From assembly GCA_011046415.1 (NCBI GenBank), contig DSAP01000111.1:1-32830 (forward strand): 32,830 nt of DNA, given 5' to 3'. Of this stretch, positions 16,643-26,103 are shown piece by piece; the stretch's first letter is position 1, and each line of letters begins with the position of its first letter. The notes under the pieces were generated by a model. That model saw only the letters and a list, made by a program, of their open reading frames with translations, made no database searches and was not told where the DNA came from. The DNA is from a bacterium (lineage in GTDB: Bacteria; Zhuqueibacterota; QNDG01; JABMRT01). The translations under genes and the position numbers were made by a program.

Positions 16643-16675
16643 GGGGCAGTCTTAGAGATTGCCCCTTTTTATTTT
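16643..16675 (+). terminator. Rho-independent terminator of the ribosomal superoperon
   Basis: A stem of GGGGCAGTC and GATTGCCCC with a TTAGA loop (one G-T pair) is followed by TTTTTATTTT. It lies 30 bp after the rplQ stop and points rightward. The stem includes the stop codon of the convergent ATPase gene (16652-16654). On the minus strand the stem is followed by CAAAAA, not a T-tract, so it should act only on the ribosomal transcript. Confidence 0.9.
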
Positions 16676-17785
16676 AAAGAGGGGTGTTTTGGTTTGAGAG
16701 TGATCGGGGAGGGATCCCGGGGTGCTGAAGAAAAACAGGTCGGCCACGGTCAGGCCGATCGATTGTCTGAGGGGCTTCCAGTTCTCACGGTAGGCCTCAT
16801 TGTCTACGGAGGTTCCTTTTTCATCCTTGTTGACCACGCGCACCCGTTCGGGTTGGCTGCGGTTGATCATGAAGGGAGAATGGGTCGTAAACACGAGTTG
16901 GTTTTTGTCGGCTAGATTGTCGAGCAATCCGCTTAAATCCTTCTGGCCGGAGGGATGCAGGTGTGTTCCCGGTTCATCCAAAAGGAACAGGTATTCGTTC
17001 GCCCGGGCCATCGCGGTCGTGGCGATAAAATTAATATAGAAGGAGAGATACCACAAAAAGCCGTTGGAACGGGATTTGGGCGTATCATATACGGTGGTCG
17101 CATCGCTGAAATCGATATAGAGCAGGTCGCCGTTGACGCGCAATTTGATTTCCAGTGAGGGCTCCTGGGTCCAGACCTCACGGATATTCTGGGTGATGAT
17201 CCGACCGGTTTCCTCCGTGGCGCGCCTGCCGCGTGTGGAGTCTTCGAAAATCAGTGCGGGATCCTCGACGCCTCCGATCTTGAGGAGATTCATCTCCGTC
17301 CTGAACTTGTCATGGTTGTTCCGCAGGTTGTCGAGGTTGACCTTGTCGCGGATGATCGGAATCGAATCGAAATACATGATTTTGGGGAGGAGAGAAAGCA
17401 GCGGTTTCACATTCCCGATCGCAAGCAGTTTGTCGTCCGTCTGAATCTTGAAATCCGTGAGATCGGGGCCTTCACGGAACAAAATGAACGAATCGACATT
17501 CCTGAAACCGTCGTACATCTTGATCAACTGGATCCGTTCTTCTTTCGTGAGGTTGATGAACTCGAGTCCGACTACGGGCGGTTTCCCTTCGTGATAGAAA
17601 TCCGAATACTGGCAGGTCAGTTCATTCGTAAATTTGAGTTCTGAATGAAAGGATTCGACGGCTTTGAGTATGTTTGTTTTCCCGGACTCATTGGGTCCAA
17701 TCAAGACGGTGACTTTCCTGTCGAGAGGAACGACGAGTTCGCGAATGGATTTGAAAGCTTTGATATGGACCCTGGATATGATCAT
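16652..17785 (-). CDS. OLD-like AAA ATPase lacking a TOPRIM domain
   Basis: The 377-residue product belongs to the SMC/OLD-type AAA ATPases. It starts MIISRVHIKAFKSIRELVVP, has a Walker A GPNESGKT at residues 30-37, and a late Walker B/D-loop region LFLLDEPGTHLHPSG near residue 270, followed by the conserved histidine switch in LVFTTHSPFMI. Full OLD-family nucleases continue with a C-terminal TOPRIM domain (an LxVEG motif). Here the sequence stops soon after GLTVADLFFFS, in a tail that overlaps the rplQ terminator. So it is either an ATPase-only homologue or a truncated OLD nuclease. A GGGAGGGAG Shine-Dalgarno precedes the ATG at 17785. It is a single minus-strand gene, with an AT-rich leader. 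Function is unknown; defence or repair roles are family associations only. Confidence 0.85.
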   Translation of the reverse strand: MIISRVHIKAFKSIRELVVPLDRKVTVLIGPNESGKTNILKAVESFHSELKFTNELTCQYSDFYHEGKPPVVGLEFINLTKEERIQLIKMYDGFRNVDSFILFREGPDLTDFKIQTDDKLLAIGNVKPLLSLLPKIMYFDSIPIIRDKVNLDNLRNNHDKFRTEMNLLKIGGVEDPALIFEDSTRGRRATEETGRIITQNIREVWTQEPSLEIKLRVNGDLLYIDFSDATTVYDTPKSRSNGFLWYLSFYINFIATTAMARANEYLFLLDEPGTHLHPSGQKDLSGLLDNLADKNQLVFTTHSPFMINRSQPERVRVVNKDEKGTSVDNEAYRENWKPLRQSIGLTVADLFFFSTPGSLPDHSQTKTPLFKIKRGNL

Positions 17786-17910: not shown

Positions 17911-20070
17911 TCAATACCTAAATCCGGCGGACAGGCGGATTTCCCGTCCGGGGCCCGGATATCCTTCGGTCAAGAAAACGGTTCGATCCGCGAGGTTGAT
18001 CGCTTCCAGGCGTAGAGAGAGCGTAAACCGGTTTACCTTAAAATCTCTTCCGAGTTCGGCGTTCCAGAGGGAAATCCGGTCCATTTTGCGTCCGGGGGTA
18101 TTGGCCGCATCGGCATACCGGTCACCCACGAGGCGAAGACTCAGCTGGAAGGAGAAATCATGCCAGTCTGCCCCCGCCGAGACGTCCCATTTATGGCGGG
18201 GGCGGTAGATTAACGCCTTCCCCCGAAAGGGTGAGCCCGGGGTCTCGTTTGTGGATTGCATCCGGGTGTATGCGATTTTCAAACGGAACCGGTCGCCGGG
18301 CAGGCGGCATGTCAGGGTGTTTTCGATACCGTGAATCCGTGCCTTGCCGACGTTCTCAGGGGACCAGACGAGACCGTCTTCGGATCCCCACTGGATCAGA
18401 TTCCTGAAGCGGCTAGTGAAGAACATGGATTCCAGTCCGATCCAGGCCGCGCCGGATTTGCGGAGCGAGAAGCCGATATCCATCGTGTTCGCGGTTTCGG
18501 GCTTGAGGTCCGGGTTGCCCCTTGAGAACATGTCCTCCGGCCACCAGAGATCGTTGAATGAAGGCGCACGGTATGCATGACCCATGTTCGCGCGCAGGAT
18601 CAGTTCCTCTTTCCCGCCGAGGGACAGGAGCAGGCCGAATCCGGGGCTGGTATGTTTTCCGATATCCGACAAACGGTCGTGCCGGATACCCGGGATCAGG
18701 CTGACCCCGAGTCCCGGCAGGATACGGCGGTTGATTTCAGCCTGGGCGAAGGCCCCGATCGTCCTCCGGTTCTGCCTGGAGAAGCGGGTGCTGTTGAGCC
18801 GGTTCTCACGTAATTCAGCCCCCGCGCTGATTTCGAAAGAATCGGCGACGCGGTAGCGTGCCCGTATTTCAGATCCGAGCGCGGTATTTTCATGGCGGTC
18901 CTTTTCCGGAACCCAGCCTTCGGGATCCCGGTATCGGTTGTCCCAGGTCTCCCCGTAGACCTGATGGACGAGCCCCAGACGTTCCGTCCATCGGTGATCG
19001 CCGCGCAGGGAGACGAGGGTCCGGGTTTCATGCCTCCGTGCCGCGGGAGTCGGGTAGGTGATCTGTCCAGCCACGCCACGCCGTGTGTCGTGCCTCTGAA
19101 AGACGGCCTGGAACCGGTGACGGATGCCGGGGGAATAAGCGCCTTTGAAAAGGAGGCTTTTCGATGCGGAATCGTTGTTCCCGCGGGTCCTAATGAGGCC
19201 CGTATCCGGGATCTTGAACCTGAAGTCGCCGTCGCTTTTTGTCTCACCGTACCCGAGAAACCAGGATAACGGGCCGACACGATGTCCCGCGTTCAGTGAG
19301 GCGGATCGCGTCCCGAATGAACCGATCATGGATTCGAAGCCACATGAGATTCCGTCACGGAAAGCGGCCTGCCGTGAAATCAGATGGATGATCCCTCCGA
19401 CCGCGCCCGCGCCGTACAGCGCGGAACGGCCTCCGCGCAGTACCTCGATCTGTTCCAGGGCGCCCGCCGGAATGGTGTTCAAATCCACCCCCCCGCCCTG
19501 GGCGGAGTTCAGCGGGATGTCGTCCATCAAAATCAAAACGTGTTCCGTGCCCGCACCCCGGATCGACGGGGTGGAGACGCCGGCCAGGTGATCCGCGTTG
19601 TTTGTGAACAATCCGACCATTCCCGCGACGAGTTCGCCCGCCGTGGAAGCGGGCCGATCCGTCAGGCAAGACCGGGTGAGGATGTCGGTCGCCGCGGTGA
19701 TTCGGGACTGCCTGCGTTCGTTCCGGGTCGCCGTGATCACGACCGGATCGATCCGAACGGCGGCGGGTTGGAGCCGGACATCCCGGCGAAGTGGGCCGGA
19801 GACCGAGACTTCCAGACGAGCCTTCCGGTATCCCAACACGGACACGACGAGGATCTGATCTCCGGCGGGTACATTCCGGAGTGCGAAGAATCCGCCGTCC
19901 CCCGAGGCGGCGCCGATGCCTTTGTTTTCGAGGTACACGTTCGCGTCCGGAATGGGACGCCCGGTCGATTCGTCCAGGACAAGGCCGGTGATCGTCGTGG
20001 TCTGCGCGATGAGGGACGAAGAGAGTAAAAGGATGAGGAGAATGTTGAGCGACAAAGACTGGGATTTCAT
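17911..20070 (-). CDS. TonB-dependent outer-membrane receptor, probable cobalamin receptor
   Basis: The 719-residue product is a complete TonB-dependent receptor. It has a signal peptide (MKSQSLSLNILLILLLSSSLIAQ, read in two halves), then a carboxypeptidase-regulatory-like domain at about residues 25-110 (ITGLVLDESTGRPIPDANVY), a plug domain with SIRGAGTEHVLILMDDIPLN and IEVLRGGRSALYGAGAVGG, and a 22-strand-type barrel ending in the aromatic FRY. I place the start at the ATG at 20070, which has AGGAGG upstream and a good signal peptide; the reading frame stays open further upstream but runs through the riboswitch. The cobalamin riboswitch ahead of it supports a B12 or corrinoid substrate. A terminator follows. 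BtuB-like by role, but I do not assign the symbol. Confidence 0.92.
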   Translation of the reverse strand: MKSQSLSLNILLILLLSSSLIAQTTTITGLVLDESTGRPIPDANVYLENKGIGAASGDGGFFALRNVPAGDQILVVSVLGYRKARLEVSVSGPLRRDVRLQPAAVRIDPVVITATRNERRQSRITAATDILTRSCLTDRPASTAGELVAGMVGLFTNNADHLAGVSTPSIRGAGTEHVLILMDDIPLNSAQGGGVDLNTIPAGALEQIEVLRGGRSALYGAGAVGGIIHLISRQAAFRDGISCGFESMIGSFGTRSASLNAGHRVGPLSWFLGYGETKSDGDFRFKIPDTGLIRTRGNNDSASKSLLFKGAYSPGIRHRFQAVFQRHDTRRGVAGQITYPTPAARRHETRTLVSLRGDHRWTERLGLVHQVYGETWDNRYRDPEGWVPEKDRHENTALGSEIRARYRVADSFEISAGAELRENRLNSTRFSRQNRRTIGAFAQAEINRRILPGLGVSLIPGIRHDRLSDIGKHTSPGFGLLLSLGGKEELILRANMGHAYRAPSFNDLWWPEDMFSRGNPDLKPETANTMDIGFSLRKSGAAWIGLESMFFTSRFRNLIQWGSEDGLVWSPENVGKARIHGIENTLTCRLPGDRFRLKIAYTRMQSTNETPGSPFRGKALIYRPRHKWDVSAGADWHDFSFQLSLRLVGDRYADAANTPGRKMDRISLWNAELGRDFKVNRFTLSLRLEAINLADRTVFLTEGYPGPGREIRLSAGFRY

Positions 20071-20110
20071 GGATTCCTCCTGCTTTCCCGCGAAAGCGGT
20101 TAGGGATGAC

Positions 20111-20270
20111 GGGATGATCCTCGGTATCCTGGCTGACGGCTCGAGCCTACTCGCCGGGCCTTCCCGTCCGCCTGAGGCGGTCAGTGGCACGATCCGGTTT
20201 TCGTCGCCGATCACAGTAGCGGGGCTGCTCCCGATTTCCCGGGGCTGTATGCGAAGTCCTGAAACGGTCA
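20111..20270 (-). promoter_or_regulatory. Cobalamin (B12) riboswitch, 5' part doubtful
   Basis: Read on the minus strand, the segment contains the conserved cobalamin-aptamer core: GGGAGCAGCCCCGCTACTGTGATC, seen here in the form AGCCCCGCTACTGTGA, then GCCACTG, GGGAAGGC and GTCAGCCAGGATACC. These match the B12-box layout of the cobalamin riboswitch family. The usual 5' part (P1-P3 with GGGAA...GTGAA) is not evident; a dispersed palindromic repeat starts where it should be. A GCTTTC/GAAAGC hairpin next to the AGGAGG of the downstream receptor could be the expression platform. It sits about 40 bp before the receptor start. Confidence 0.8.
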
Positions 20271-20351
20271 TTGCGGGTATCTTTGGGCGAAGCGCTCTCA
20301 TCGCTTTTTGGGCGTCAATCCGGAGATTGCCGCTTCGCACCTCGCAACGAC
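20267..20351. repeat. Dispersed palindromic extragenic repeat inside the riboswitch leader
   Basis: An imperfect inverted repeat of 85 bp. The left arm starts GTCATTGCGGG and has GCGAAGCG then TCTC; the right arm starts GAGATTGCCGCTTCGCACC and ends TCGCAACGAC. This is the layout of the family of short interspersed repeats seen between genes in many environmental bacteria (ATTGC...GCTTCG...GCAATGAC types). It adjoins the 5' edge of the recognisable riboswitch core. Repeat identity is by pattern only; copy number elsewhere in the genome cannot be judged here. Confidence 0.65.
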
Positions 20352-20556
20352 AAAGAAGGGACTGATGATACAGCCCGGGGGCACGGTGTTCCCGAAGAGA
20401 ATCCCGATTTCTGGTCAACATACAAAAACAGATCTTAAGTCCGGAGAACCTCCTTTCTTTTTCAACGCATCGCCGGAAACCCAATGCATATTTTGACGGG
20501 CCGGCCGGATGAACGAGACCCAATATCCCGTCCGATTCCTTCCAGGACGACATCGA

Positions 20557-21252
20557 TCATCCCGCGTCACTCGCGACGCAGGATTCGACGAACGGGGCCG
20601 CGAGGCGCCGGAACGCCTCCATCTCCTCTTTTCCAAGAGGAGAGAGCCGCGAAAAATCCGGGGCGTACGTCGGGAATCCGGACAGGTTTTGGAGGACGTA
20701 ACGTCCCGCCCCTGAAATCAGGGTGAGCATGGATTCGAACACGTCCCGGGTGTGGAAGCCGGGTATGAGCGTCGTCCTGAATTCGTACGGGATTTCCGAT
20801 TCCATGATCAGCCGGATGCTTTCGAGTATCCGCGAGAAATCAATCGACCTTCCCGTGATGCGGGAGAACGATCCGTTCGGCGCCTTGAGGTCCATCGCGA
20901 CGTAATCGATCCGTTTCTCCCGGATCAACGGCCCGAGACGGTCCGGGAGCGTGCCGTTCGTGTCGAGCTTGACCGAAAAACCCAGCGCCCTGGCATCCTC
21001 CATGGCCGATGCCAGGCCTTCCTGGAGCAGCGGTTCGCCGCCGGTGAAGACCACGCCGTCGAGTTTGCCCGGCCGTCCTTTGAGGAATCCGAGCACGTCG
21101 CGCCATGCGAGCGCGGCCGGTTTCTCCTCCGGTATCAGTTCCCCGTTGTGACACCAGGGGCATCTCAGATTGCACCCCTGCGTGAAGACCACCGCGGCGA
21201 TCCGGTCCGGGAAATCGATCAGGGAGAGCCTCCGGAGTCCCCCGATTTTCAC
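20557..21252 (-). CDS. nrdG: Anaerobic ribonucleoside-triphosphate reductase activating protein
   Basis: NrdG is a radical-SAM enzyme that installs the glycyl radical on NrdD. The 231-residue product has the CX3CX2C cluster motif at residues 27-34 (CNLRCPWC), the GGEPLLQ motif near residue 70, KLDTNGTLPD, and YVAMDLKAP, all standard for this family. Its ATG overlaps the nrdD stop by four bases (ATGA), so the two are translationally coupled. It is the last gene of the presumed four-gene unit under the right-hand riboswitch. I see no clear terminator after it. Length is longer than the compact E. coli NrdG (154 residues) and fits the pflA-like NrdG form. Confidence 0.95.
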   Translation of the reverse strand: MKIGGLRRLSLIDFPDRIAAVVFTQGCNLRCPWCHNGELIPEEKPAALAWRDVLGFLKGRPGKLDGVVFTGGEPLLQEGLASAMEDARALGFSVKLDTNGTLPDRLGPLIREKRIDYVAMDLKAPNGSFSRITGRSIDFSRILESIRLIMESEIPYEFRTTLIPGFHTRDVFESMLTLISGAGRYVLQNLSGFPTYAPDFSRLSPLGKEEMEAFRRLAAPFVESCVASDAG

Positions 21253-23381
21253 GGTGCGACCGCGGCTTCCACGGTTTCGGCGGTTTGATCCGAAACCACC
21301 CTGAACACGCGCCGGTCGCTGAATTCCGATTTCTTGCCCACGTTCCAGTGGTGGACGGGGCGCAGGTAGCCGACGACCCGGGAGTAGACTTCCGTGACGC
21401 CGCCGCAGTCGGGGCAGCGGGTCTGTTCGCCCTTGATGTATCCGTGTTCCCGGCAGACGCTGAAGGTCGGCGTCAGGGTGAAATAGGGGAGGCGGTAGGC
21501 GGATGCGACGCGCCGGACGAGCCGTTTGGCCGAACGGATGCCGGGCAGGCGCTCCCCGATGAATCCGTGGAACACCGTGCCGCCGGTGTAGAGGGTCTGG
21601 AGTTCGTCCTGGAGATCCAGCGCCTCGAAGAGATCGTCCGTGAAGCCGACGGGGAGCTGGCTGGAATTGGTGTAATAGGGGTTCGCCCCTTTCCGGTACT
21701 CCGCCTCATTGGCGCAGAGGATGTTGGGGTATTTCTCCTTGTCCATCATGGCGAGCCGGTACGAGGTGCCCTCGGCCGGTGTGGCTTCCAGATTGTAGAC
21801 GTTGCCCGTCTCTTCCTGCACGGACAGGAGGCGTTCGCGCATATGGGACAGCACCTCCACGGCGAAGGCGCGTCCGATGTCCTCGCCGAGATGCTTGCCG
21901 AGGAAATTCAGGCAGGCCTCGTTCATCCCCACCAAACCGATCGTGCCGAAATGGTTGGTCCAGTACCCGCCGGTCGCGGCCCTGATGTCGGACAGATAAT
22001 GGCGGGCGTAGGGATAGAGATCGGCGTCCGTGAAGGTTTCCAGGATCTTCCGTTTGTTTTCCAGGCTGTCGACGGCCAGATCCATCAGGTGGTCGAGCCG
22101 GGAGAAAAAATCGGATTTGTCCAGCGCGAGAAATCCGATACGGGGCAGATTCAGGGTGACCACGCCGATGGAGCCGGTCAGGGGATTGGCGCCGAAGAGG
22201 CCGCCGCCGCGTTTACGCAGCGTCCGGTTGTCCAGCCTGAGACGGCAGCACATCGAACGGGCGTCCTCGGGGTTCATGTCCGAATTGACGAAGTTGGAAA
22301 AATAAGGGATGCCGTATTTGGCGGTCATCTCCCAGATGGGGTCGAGCCGTTTGTCCTCCCACGGGAAATCCTTCGTGATGTTGTATGTGGGGATCGGGAA
22401 GGTGAAGACGCGCCCCAGCGCGTCCCCCTCGGACATCACCTCCGCGAAGGCCCGGTTCAGGATGAAGAGTTCTTCCTGGTACTCCCCGTATGTCGTTTCC
22501 CGGGGTTCGCCGCCGATGATCACGGGCTGGTCCGCCAGGAATCCGGGCACGGTGAGATCCAGGCTGATGTTGGTGAAGGGCGTCTGAAATCCCACCCGCG
22601 TCGGCACGTTGATGTTGAAGACGAATTCCTGGAGGGCCTGCTTGACCTCCTGTTCCCGGAGGCCGTCGTGCCGGATGAACGGGGCGAGGTAGGTGTCGAA
22701 ATTGCTGAAGGCCTGCGCGCCGGCGGCCTCGCCCTGGAGGGTGTAGAAGAAGTTGACGATCTGCCCCAAGGCCGTCCTCAAATGTTTGGCGGGACGGCTT
22801 TCGACCTTGCCCTGGGCGCCGCGGAATCCTTCCCTGAGGAGCTGGCCCAGATCCCATCCCACGCAGTACACGGCCAAAATGTTGAGATCGTGGATGTGGA
22901 AGTCGCCTTTCAGATGCGCGTCGCGGATCTCCGCCGGATAGTTCTTGTTGAGCCAGTACTGGGAGGTAATCACGGAAGAGATGTGGTTGTTCAACCCCTG
23001 GATGGAGAAGGCCATGTTGCTGTTCTCGTTGACCCGCCAGTCGAGTTTCCCCAGATAGGAATCCACGATGTCGGTGCTGATGTGGGTCTTGATGTCGCGG
23101 ATCCGGGCGTGCTGATCGCGGTAGAGGATATAGGCCTTGGCGGTTCTGCGATGGGGGGAGGCCATGAGCACGGTCTCCACCGCGTCCTGGATTTCCTCCA
23201 CCTCGGGCACCCGGTTTTTGACGTGCCCGTCCAGATGACGCTGCACCTCGCGCGTGAGCCGCTGGGCGATGTCGATGTCGAATTCACCGGTCGCGCGTCC
23301 GGCCTTGAAGATAGCCACGGTGATCTTCGATGGGTCGAATTCGACGACCCGTCCGTCCCGTTTTCGGATTTGTGTGAACAT
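21249..23381 (-). CDS. nrdD: Anaerobic ribonucleoside-triphosphate reductase (class III)
   Basis: NrdD reduces ribonucleotides to deoxyribonucleotides without oxygen or B12, using a glycyl radical. The 710-residue product starts with an ATP-cone (TQIRKRDGRVVEFDPSKITV), has an active-site cysteine region in MCCRLRLD, a C-terminal metal site (C643, H646, C656, C659, from CREH and CPDC), and the glycyl-radical loop RVVGYLRPV with G671. RVVGY replaces the usual RVCGY, so the cysteine next to the glycine is absent. The ATG at 23381 has AAAAGGAG just upstream; the reading frame continues upstream into the receptor gene but has no family similarity there. Only 22 bp separate it from the upstream receptor gene, so it probably belongs to that operon. 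Confidence 0.96.
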   Translation of the reverse strand: MFTQIRKRDGRVVEFDPSKITVAIFKAGRATGEFDIDIAQRLTREVQRHLDGHVKNRVPEVEEIQDAVETVLMASPHRRTAKAYILYRDQHARIRDIKTHISTDIVDSYLGKLDWRVNENSNMAFSIQGLNNHISSVITSQYWLNKNYPAEIRDAHLKGDFHIHDLNILAVYCVGWDLGQLLREGFRGAQGKVESRPAKHLRTALGQIVNFFYTLQGEAAGAQAFSNFDTYLAPFIRHDGLREQEVKQALQEFVFNINVPTRVGFQTPFTNISLDLTVPGFLADQPVIIGGEPRETTYGEYQEELFILNRAFAEVMSEGDALGRVFTFPIPTYNITKDFPWEDKRLDPIWEMTAKYGIPYFSNFVNSDMNPEDARSMCCRLRLDNRTLRKRGGGLFGANPLTGSIGVVTLNLPRIGFLALDKSDFFSRLDHLMDLAVDSLENKRKILETFTDADLYPYARHYLSDIRAATGGYWTNHFGTIGLVGMNEACLNFLGKHLGEDIGRAFAVEVLSHMRERLLSVQEETGNVYNLEATPAEGTSYRLAMMDKEKYPNILCANEAEYRKGANPYYTNSSQLPVGFTDDLFEALDLQDELQTLYTGGTVFHGFIGERLPGIRSAKRLVRRVASAYRLPYFTLTPTFSVCREHGYIKGEQTRCPDCGGVTEVYSRVVGYLRPVHHWNVGKKSEFSDRRVFRVVSDQTAETVEAAVAP

Positions 23382-23403
23382 GCGGCTCCTTTTCCGAGTT
23401 GTT

Positions 23404-25257
23404 TTAATCGAATACCGTCCAGCGGAGGCCGTAACGGAAGGCCCGTCCGGTTTGGGGGAAACCGTAGACCCGGAACTGTCCTGCATTGAGCAGGTTGTCC
23501 AGCTCCAGAAACACATCCGCGTGCTTCATCACGGTGAGAACGGCCTTGAGGTCGAAAATGACGCCGGGGTCTCCGGCGAGGACGGACTGATCCTGCACAA
23601 GCGCCCAGAATTCGCTGCGAAATCCGGCCGCCGCCTGCAGCCGGACTTTCAGATCCCCGCGGAAGAACACCTGAGACCAGGAGACCGCACCCCGTCCCCA
23701 CACGGCGGGCCGTTCCTGGAGGAAATTCCCGCCGCCGTCCACGGCGCGGAGATAGTTGACCACACCGGACAGCTCGATGCGGTGAAACGGTCCGGCCCGG
23801 AACATCGTCTCGATACCGCCGAACCGGGCCTTGCCCGAATTGACGAAACCGGGAGAGAGCGTGTCCGGATTAAACCGGATCCGGTCGCGCGTGTCCCGCA
23901 TGAAAAAACGCACGGTCGCGTCGAGCGGCGGCAGGGGGGTGAGGCGGATGTGGATGCCGGCCTGGTCGGACCGCTCGGGTTTCAGGGATTGATTTCCGAA
24001 TGGCGCGGTCCCGAGATACCGGCGCCGGTATTCGTCCGGGGTTTCAGGGGGGCCGGCGGGAAGGGCGTATCCGGAGGTCTCCCCCAGGGACGGATGGCGG
24101 AAGCGGCGCGAGACGGAAAAGCCCGCCGACGCGGATGCGGAAGGCCGCCAGTCCGCGCTCAGGGCGGGGGAAAGGCGTGGCGCGTCCTCCATGAACCGGA
24201 CGAGGACCAGGTCCGCCCGGGGAGAGACCGTTCCGTATTCCGGATCGATCCGTACATGGGCGGTCTGTTCGCGCGCGGTGAACTTTTTCCCGTCCCGTCC
24301 CGTCAGCCGGTTTTCCGAAAGCCGCAATCCCCAGCCGAGGGGCAGGCCGGCCTGCCGGGCGTCCTGGGACCAGTCGAGGGCCGTGCGTCCGACCGGCGTG
24401 CGCGACGGGGGCGGTCCTTCGGCCGTCTCCGGCCTGAAGAGATATTCCGAGCGGGCCATCTGGACGAGCAGGATGCTCTTCAGGTCCAGGACGGACGATT
24501 CCAGGGCCAGCCGCTGATCCCGGTGTGTGATCTTACGCGCGGGCCGGGAAAGCCGGGCCGAATGGTCCGGCAGGGTCAGGGCATGGGGCATGTCGCCCTC
24601 GTGTCTCCCGTCCATGATGTCGTACCTGAACCGGAGGCGCTCCAGAATCCGGTATGCGATCCGGGCGCGCACGCCCTGTTCCCTGTACGCGATGCCCGGG
24701 ACGTCTTCCGCGAATTTTCTGAGTGTGACCGCGGAAGACAAAGACAGACGTGAAAAGAAAGTCTGGGCGAAGGCGATGTCCAGGTCGCTGTATCCGTTTC
24801 CCCCCGTCCGGTAGAGGAAGGTCGTCTCGGGCCGTTTCGGCTCCGGCCGCCGGGTGACGAGGTTGACCGCCGCGCCGATCTGGGACAGGCCGAAGGGATT
24901 GGTTTCCGGATAGATCTCGATCCGTTCGACCATTTCGGGCGGGATCCGGTTCAGGTCCACCGCTTCGGTCCAGGGCTCGGCGAGCGGCACGCCGTCCACG
25001 CACAGCACGGACTGTTCCGCCGGCGCTCCTGCGAACCGGAAGGGGGCGAACTGGCCGGTGAGTCCCAGATCGCGCACCCAGATCCCCGGGAGGAGTTCCA
25101 GGATGTCCGCGAAGCTCCTGTAGTTCCATCCGTCCGCCTCGGCCATGTCGATTTTCCAGACGAAATCGCCGCCGGGCGCCCGGGACGGAAAGGCGAGCAG
25201 CGCCGCGATGCCGAGGCGCCCCAGCCATTCGAACGGGCTGCTTTTCCACCTATTCAT
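23404..25257 (-). CDS. TonB-dependent outer-membrane receptor (second)
   Basis: The 617-residue product has a hydrophobic N-terminal signal-like segment (GRLGIAALLAFPSRAPG), a plug domain with RSFADILELLPGIWVRDLG, QSVLCVDGVPLAEPW, and VERIEIYPETNPFGLSQIGAAVNLV, then a beta-barrel of repeated alternating strands ending YGLRWTVFD. It has no carboxypeptidase-regulatory domain, unlike the other receptor. It overlaps the end of the upstream S-component gene by 8 bp and is 22 bp before nrdD. The riboswitch at the head of the unit points to cobalamin or a related corrinoid as substrate. The plug is compact and the gene at the short end for the family. Confidence 0.9.
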   Translation of the reverse strand: MNRWKSSPFEWLGRLGIAALLAFPSRAPGGDFVWKIDMAEADGWNYRSFADILELLPGIWVRDLGLTGQFAPFRFAGAPAEQSVLCVDGVPLAEPWTEAVDLNRIPPEMVERIEIYPETNPFGLSQIGAAVNLVTRRPEPKRPETTFLYRTGGNGYSDLDIAFAQTFFSRLSLSSAVTLRKFAEDVPGIAYREQGVRARIAYRILERLRFRYDIMDGRHEGDMPHALTLPDHSARLSRPARKITHRDQRLALESSVLDLKSILLVQMARSEYLFRPETAEGPPPSRTPVGRTALDWSQDARQAGLPLGWGLRLSENRLTGRDGKKFTAREQTAHVRIDPEYGTVSPRADLVLVRFMEDAPRLSPALSADWRPSASASAGFSVSRRFRHPSLGETSGYALPAGPPETPDEYRRRYLGTAPFGNQSLKPERSDQAGIHIRLTPLPPLDATVRFFMRDTRDRIRFNPDTLSPGFVNSGKARFGGIETMFRAGPFHRIELSGVVNYLRAVDGGGNFLQERPAVWGRGAVSWSQVFFRGDLKVRLQAAAGFRSEFWALVQDQSVLAGDPGVIFDLKAVLTVMKHADVFLELDNLLNAGQFRVYGFPQTGRAFRYGLRWTVFD

Positions 25258-25807
25258 GGACGCTTCCCCGCAGCTCCGACGTCCATCCGAGACGGTCGAG
25301 ACGGTTCAGGATGAACGGGACCAGCAGAAAGAAGAAAACCGTGTTGGTGATCATGTGCGTGACGTAGAATCCGAGCCCCTGGATCAGGCTGCCCCAGAAG
25401 AGGACGCGATGGTTCCCTGCGGTCAGCACATAGGCCAGGGTGGTCAAAAGGGCGTACAGGACGGTGAAGCAGAGGCCGCAGGCCGCGAACAGGAGGGCCG
25501 CCTTCCAGCCGATGCGGCGTATCCGCCGGCCCAGCACGCCGGCCACGCCTCCCACGATCGTGTAGGACAGGATCTGCGCGACAAAGAGGGGGGGCGGCGC
25601 CATGCCGTAGGGGTTGAGCATTGAATAGAGTCCGATCGCGATGCCGCCGACGGCGATGCCGGAAACCATCCCCGTCCAGTACCCTGAGATGAAGACGCCC
25701 GTGGTCAGGAGCTCGATGTTGGGGACGGCCGCCAACAGGTGTCCCAGCGCGACGCAGAGGGCCGCGAGCAGGCCGATGACCGGTGGATTGAAATGGGGGG
25801 ATTTCAT
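25250..25807 (-). CDS. ECF-type transporter S component, probably for cobalamin
   Basis: The 185-residue product is an integral membrane protein with about five to six hydrophobic segments, starting NPPVIGLLAALCVALGHLL and PNIELLTTGVFISGYWTGMV. This layout fits the substrate-capture (S) subunit of energy-coupling factor transporters. No EcfA ATPases or EcfT are in the window, so it would depend on partners encoded elsewhere. It is the first gene after the right-hand cobalamin riboswitch, which suggests B12 or a precursor as substrate; this is inference. The ATG at 25807 lacks an adjacent strong Shine-Dalgarno; an AAGGAAAGGA run lies about 28 bases upstream, next to GC-rich inverted sequence. 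Confidence 0.8.
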   Translation of the reverse strand: MKSPHFNPPVIGLLAALCVALGHLLAAVPNIELLTTGVFISGYWTGMVSGIAVGGIAIGLYSMLNPYGMAPPPLFVAQILSYTIVGGVAGVLGRRIRRIGWKAALLFAACGLCFTVLYALLTTLAYVLTAGNHRVLFWGSLIQGLGFYVTHMITNTVFFFLLVPFILNRLDRLGWTSELRGSVHE

Positions 25808-25869
25808 GGCAAGCCGGCCGCGGACGGCGGCGTCCTTTCCTTTCGTTGTCCTTCCCGCGCAGGTACATC

Positions 25870-26070
25870 CAGCCGACAGGCAGGTCTCCTGGCTTTCCCG
25901 GTTCGGATCGCCTTCCCGTCCGCCTGAGGCGGACAGTGGCGGAATGCATCCGTCCACAAATCGGGATCACAGTTGCGGGGCAGCTCCCGAATCGCCGCCT
26001 CTGTGCGTTCATCGGGCGGTTCACGGGATTCCCTATTCTTCCGGCGCCATGGCCGGACACCTGTCGTGTG
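25870..26070 (-). promoter_or_regulatory. Cobalamin (B12) riboswitch
   Basis: On the minus strand this leader shows the full cobalamin aptamer order: ACAGGTG, AGGGAATCCCGTGAA, GGGAGCTGCCCCGCAACTGTG, GCCACTG, GGGAAGGC and AAGCCAGGAGACCTGCCTGTCGG (the last in pieces). The 5' ACAGGTG and 3' CCTGCCTGT can pair as P1. A promoter ends just upstream, so transcription would begin at or near the aptamer. It lies about 60 bp before the S-component start and should shut off the downstream unit when B12 is plentiful. Confidence 0.95.
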
Positions 26071-26074
26071 AATC

Positions 26075-26103
26075 AATATAGGGATTCGGGCCGGCGGAGT
26101 CAA
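26075..26103 (-). promoter_or_regulatory. Sigma70-type promoter of the B12 riboswitch operon
   Basis: On the minus strand, TTGACT (26103-26098) is followed by a 17-base spacer and TATATT (26080-26075). The predicted start site is about 7 bases on, at the 5' edge of the riboswitch. Both hexamers differ from consensus by one base, and the spacing is ideal. Confidence 0.85.

Follow-up and report, generated by a model that had tools for sequence, protein, structure and literature searches.

The left-hand of two cobalamin riboswitches in the window (the whole stretch of 32,830 nt that was analysed) is likely a class-I-like switch with a fused P1–P3 arm and without a P2 hairpin, into whose loop L4 a 137-bp MITE-like palindromic element has been taken. 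Judged from the sequence, the most likely function is retained translational control of the adjacent receptor gene, because the BtuB-like reading frame is intact, as are the L5 and L13 partners and the ribosome-binding site, and the switch is probably functional and not broken.

The conserved core and the 5' half

Searches with the RF00174 covariance model detected a right-hand cobalamin riboswitch at 25862-26079 (114.8 bits) and a left-hand one at 20110-20370 (56.6 bits), both on the minus strand of the window; no other RF00174 match was found in the 3.11-Mb genome assembly. The left one exceeds the gathering threshold of 31.5 bits, and its bit score ranks 79th, i.e. third-lowest, of 81 when all matches from the 82 genomes of the phylum are compared. 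Its 3' core is retained within 20110-20240 on the minus strand, as stated in a preliminary description of this DNA, and comprises GCCCCGCTACTGTGA, GCCACTG, GGGAAGGC and GCCAGGATACC. The RF00174 alignment locates P5/L5 (GCAGCCCCGCTACTGT), the aptamer partner of the kissing loop, at 20213-20228 and the B12 box (AGCCAGGATACC) at 20123-20134, both on the minus strand. The alignment also spans GCCACUG...GGGAAGGC together with its flanks, which corresponds to the P8–P12 extension quoted as the criterion for class I cobalamin riboswitches in an excerpt of PMC11260477. From its sequence, the left switch can probably be placed among class-I-like cobalamin riboswitches, with P1 and P3 fused into one arm.

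The preliminary description had regarded the 5' half as eroded or replaced, which was not borne out: it is probably not missing and sits upstream of the palindrome. Beyond the element we found a J3/4-type GGGAA (20389-20393, minus strand), which aligns with the GGGAA of the relatives G001a, G002a and G003b when the element is removed and whose first two Gs lie within the P3 helix, and the 5' strand of a fused P1–P3 helix (CGGGATTCTCTTCGG; 20392-20406, minus strand). The latter has 13 of 15 standard pairs with the 3' strand (CCGAGGATCATCCCG; 20110-20124, minus strand), which is located directly after the B12 box, and the same pairing was independently recovered as inverted repeat I2. At this fixed register, at least 13 of 15 pairs were reached by 14 of 200,000 random strands of local composition, and a comparison with all 622 15-mers preceding GAA on the minus strand returned a single one that pairs as well, namely the window strand itself by position. 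A free-register search of both flanks gave a weaker figure, with 175 of 20,000 shuffles equalling the observed pairing. The energy of the P1/P3 duplex in the window amounts to -19.7 kcal/mol and was matched by two of 2000 shuffled 5' strands; across the seven sequences of this test, three were matched by at most 12 of 2000 shuffles and the other four by 78 to 485.

The comparison with orthologous switches is in accordance with this assignment. Two genomes of the same family (G001 and G002) harbor a cobalamin riboswitch immediately upstream of the orthologous receptor, with about 41% identity each, and a genome from another family of the same order (G003) carries a switch at a contig end, after a relative of the second receptor; its presumed target receptor is cut off. 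A single-protein scan of the genome contigs found no relative, an alignment-based scan did; a plasmid match was not found. With the element removed, the flanks of the window switch align with the three relatives (G001a, G002a, G003b) via GGGAA-N4-GTG and AATC, and 78 of the 88 columns that are invariant in these relatives are kept. Leave-one-out comparisons gave the same value for G003b (78/88), which is free of the element, and 78/91 and 78/82 for G001a and G002a. The RNAalifold consensus of the switches from G001, G002 and G003, calculated with the window excluded, shows a continuous P1/P3 helix of 13 pairs without P2, followed by P4, P5 and the remaining structure, and six of these 13 pairs exhibit a double-sided change in one sequence that maintains the pairing. 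Just five P1/P3 pairs were kept when the window was included, which is probably caused by bulges that shift the columns.

The P2 hairpin of RF00174 is absent from the left switch, in which P1 continues into P3. This arrangement is common to G001a, G002a and G003b and also occurs in G004, G009, G038 and locus L147, so that the divergent aptamer subtype proposed as an alternative in the preliminary description holds in part, namely as a fused P1–P3 variant that the left switch has in common with those of G001, G002 and G003. An alignment of six P2-less switches was set aside, as its P6 region was misaligned. We did not count the absence of P2 against membership in the wider family, because P2 is described as a peripheral arm of cobalamin riboswitches in an excerpt of PMC11260477, and its loss represents a known kind of variation, since the same paper describes the ppe2 B12 riboswitch of Mycobacterium tuberculosis with a fused P1–P3 arm and an L5–L13 kissing loop near the translation start. 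The missing P2 and the element in L4 explain why the 5' half of the left switch looks unlike that of the right copy. Further upstream, GAAAGGAGG is located at 20449-20457 (minus strand), about 45 nt before the P1 strand and with no obvious start codon after it, and in G001a and G002a the similar AAAGGAGG precedes the switch.

The RF00174 match of the left switch spans model positions 1-189, and we rejected its interpretation as an intact P1–P3 because the alignment places P3 and J3/4 inside the element and deletes eight P1 positions on either side. The suspected loss of the 5' half is accordingly not refuted by this match, since the P1–P3 part has been forced into the palindrome. Automatic covariance-model alignments can thus give an intact switch a truncated look.

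The repeat element and its probable insertion in L4

The element extends over 137 bp from 20241 to 20377 and includes the 85-bp palindrome (20267-20351) that had been described as an imperfect palindrome of the interspersed repeat type. The palindrome is real and its family dispersed, but a stand-alone 85-bp repeat was rejected: as the other copies show, it is the interior of a MITE-like terminal-inverted-repeat element whose ends are located 26 bp further out on either side. Family ends were identified with the 19-bp pattern GGGGCTGTATCAAAAGTCC, allowing a maximum of three mismatches. Both ends of the window element (20241-20259 and 20359-20377) fit this pattern with three mismatches each and represent terminal inverted repeats. 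The pattern has 15 matches in this genome, compared with none for the reversed pattern, and 85 versus nine matches over 12 genomes of the class. Pairing of ends (up to nine mismatches in total, at least one end with up to three, spacing of 60-220 bp) revealed five complete copies of 128-159 bp with differing interiors in this genome, so that the search for further copies suggested in the preliminary description added four to that of the window. A short form of the family, whose two ends are about 17 bp apart, is present at L140 (G000:C25:20686).

The window element is similar from end to end to 140-145-bp elements of two further genomes, G006 and G010. The comparison with the 140-bp elements of G006, which belongs to a different family of the same order, reached a score of 53.5 versus a shuffled maximum of 5.5, and 31.5 versus 7.5 for the interior only; the flanks of the G006 elements do not suggest riboswitch loops. 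An interior motif, CATTGCGAGG...GAAGCG, recurs at G000:C56:4893, where a family end is about 90 bp away. The divergence at both ends of the window element suggests that the insertion is not recent.

A link to a transposase comes from G010 (C134:1004-1955), where family ends 952 bp apart enclose a frame that matches an IS1182-family transposase in two pieces. With 186.5 bits against a curated cut-off of 270, this single locus represents a relic and not an intact insertion sequence. The window element is accordingly read as a MITE that may have been mobilised by an IS1182-type transposase, as its 19-bp ends resemble those flanking the relic. It differs from the MITEs of IS1182-family insertion sequences in that a search of the assembly of this genome found no transposase flanked by such ends, and the one IS1182-like fragment there (C82) has no family ends nearby.

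The receptor gene, its expression platform and the right-hand switch

The gene downstream of the left switch (17911-20070, minus strand) encodes a TonB-dependent receptor of 719 amino acids with an intact frame and Pfam plug and barrel domains. TIGR01779 (BtuB) is the best family, but as its score of 192.8 bits is below the cut-off of 599.7, we call the receptor no more than BtuB-like. A P13/L13 hairpin (GCTTTCGCGGGAAAGC) is located at 20082-20097 (minus strand) with predicted stem pair probabilities of 0.82-0.83; it adjoins the ribosome-binding site AGGAGG (20076-20081, minus strand), which directly follows P13, and the start codon at 20070. By inspection, the L13 loop GCGGG is complementary to CCCGC of L5. 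The switches of G001a and G002a exhibit a nearly identical hairpin at the same place before the ribosome-binding site, and ahead of the orthologous receptors in five further loci (L143, L144, L145, L148 and L149) we recognised by eye a stem followed by a T run instead.

By analogy with the L5–L13 kissing-loop mechanism of B12 riboswitches, which is described in excerpts of PMC9600662 and PMC11260477, the left switch looks translational. In the transcript, P4 would be prolonged outward by the element, folded as a long and self-contained hairpin, and the P3–P6 four-way junction, the B12 box and L5 would be assembled from the sequences flanking it. Upon binding of cobalamin, pairing between L5 and the L13 loop of P13, a hairpin beside AGGAGG and the start codon, would repress translation of the receptor.

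Several observations concern the neighborhood of the gene. No promoter-like site was found within 20000-20600. Ahead of its start, the receptor frame runs for 162 codons without a stop (20070-20553, minus strand), i.e. through the riboswitch and the element; this is probably a chance effect of the high GC content, because the frame in G002 does not open before the 3' end of the switch is reached. The receptor is followed by a gene for an AAA ATPase (AAA_15/AAA_21; 16652-17785, minus strand), and a look-alike 379-aa gene occurs after the receptor in G002 (L049, 750-1889).

The right-hand switch (25862-26079, minus strand) harbors a P2 hairpin and its own 27-nt extension of L4. Downstream of it are an ECF-S-like gene, whose score is below the cut-off, a second TonB-type receptor, nrdD and nrdG, and these genes between the two switches (20557-25807, minus strand) likely form an operon. 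Such an operon would connect the sensing of B12 with uptake and with the anaerobic ribonucleotide reductase, which does not depend on B12. At 26075-26103 (minus strand), a sigma-70-like site (TTGACT, 17, TATATT) coincides in part with the 5' end of the right switch.

P4, predicted folding and alternative explanations

The element is located between the two strands of P4, i.e. in L4, a position at which the right copy (27 nt) and G007 (30 nt) also have additional nucleotides. The 5' strand (CACCG; 20384-20388, minus strand) has three of five pairs with the 3' strand (CGGGA; 20229-20233, minus strand), whose position is also supported by the alignment with the relatives. The inner three pairs are kept, one of them via a double change, and the two basal pairs are lost. 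The other 35 switches captured in our survey have five pairs in 31 cases, four in three cases and three in one low-scoring match. The survey comprises 36 distinct cores that fit the search pattern, and G002a and G003b are among those that did not fit; as the pattern could not span the element, the value for the window was taken from a constrained fold. A further cobalamin switch at L053 (G008:C69:2628-2843; 30.5 bits), in a locus that likewise contains a gene related to the second receptor, has three of five P4 pairs and is a candidate for a decaying switch. Across the two sides of the element, candidates for all parts of the P3–P6 junction are present (GGGAA of J3/4, P4, the B12 box and L5), although P4 has just three of its five pairs and J3/4 was not placed upstream of the element by any automatic alignment of the uncut sequence. 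According to base-pair probabilities, the element should fold by itself, with 84 of its 137 bases paired internally and 0.5 with the flanks. Riboswitches tolerate long variable insertions, which according to an excerpt of PMC2258182 are typically stem-loops that leave the core undisturbed. Enforcing P1/P3 and P4 costs 2.3 kcal/mol (from -139.8 kcal/mol for the free minimum to -137.5 kcal/mol).

According to the preliminary description, the repeat might have damaged the aptamer, so that the receptor escapes B12 control. The insertion itself is documented by the family ends, the copies and the homology to the G006 elements, but a broken aptamer with a decaying P4 and a receptor expressed without B12 control is not supported by the L4 site, the conserved columns and the intact platform. 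This explanation stays alive because the two pairs at the base of P4 are lost, and it is in line with the low RF00174 score and with a free-energy minimum that is devoid of P1/P3 in its homologous form. Yet the diverged ends suggest an old insertion, the relative-invariant columns have nevertheless largely been kept, the P1/P3 pairing and the P13/L13 hairpin have been maintained, and the frame of the receptor is intact. We therefore regard the damage as unlikely.

A second alternative is that the true 5' half has been lost and that one end of the element substitutes for it, with GGGAA at 20236-20240 and the adjoining end serving as J3/4 and P1 and without any P4. Exactly this alignment was produced by R1, a covariance model built from the three relatives only, which matches 20109-20252 with 74.6 bits, deletes P4 and uses this GGGAA instead of the upstream one. 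On the uncut sequence, neither RF00174 nor R1 places J3/4 or the 5' half upstream of the element. R1 was trained without inserts and cannot price an insertion of 137 nt, which the training set of RF00174 presumably shows rarely or never. We regard both alignments as undecided, since both must pay for an insertion that is lacking or rare in their training, yet they do not support the insertion alignment either. The substitution would leave this switch without P4, although all 35 other captured switches have at least three of the five pairs, four of the 13 P1 pairs in the R1 alignment are non-standard, and the pairing of the upstream strand would be an accident of the kind seen in 14 of 200,000 random strands. 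Taken together, this scenario is very improbable.

That the palindrome is an ordinary variable L4 hairpin resembling other repeats by chance might be argued from the L4 extensions of the right copy (27 nt) and of G007 (30 nt, without repeat-family ends), from the lack of an obvious target-site duplication by eye in the flanks of the extracted copies and from a BLAST search of a 146-nt stretch against its own genome, which gave weak matches only besides itself and was too insensitive, but it can practically be dismissed given the fit of both ends to the family pattern and the end-to-end similarity, interior included, to the dispersed G006 elements.

The preferred explanation thus remains a P2-less switch with the MITE-like element in L4. 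A more far-reaching idea is that the former MITE now represents the P4 arm of a working riboswitch, whose stem replaces the lost basal pairs in stabilising the junction and may tune the response to B12; we consider it doubtful. No second switch carrying the element was found among the loci examined, and the four other long RF00174 matches examined in the phylum (G080, G081, G068 and G071) have their extra length outside L4.

The left switch shares its conserved core with RF00174 class I riboswitches, as well as the B12 box, L5, the extension that separates these two and a BtuB-like receptor downstream, and it differs from them by the fused P1–P3 without P2, the mobile element in L4 and the incomplete P4. 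With the ppe2 switch it shares the fused arm and, as predicted, the kissing loop near the translation start; according to the excerpt of PMC11260477, ppe2 was placed in class IIb and its P6 extension is truncated, whereas the window switch keeps a long extension. Palindromic elements of 105-146 bp have been reported from tmRNA and RNase P RNA of Rickettsia (excerpt of the review PMC2229807). They likewise combine terminal inverted repeats with a palindrome inside a structured RNA, but they belong to another element family and, unlike in the window, the host RNA is not a riboswitch. Open-access full-text searches, judged by titles and the starts of abstracts, returned no title describing a riboswitch with a mobile palindromic repeat in its aptamer. 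Each component is of a known kind, and their combination did not appear among the titles and abstract starts that these searches gave. The left switch would be a natural case in which a riboswitch has accepted a transposon-derived sequence inside its ligand-binding domain, in a loop whose extension the core can tolerate.
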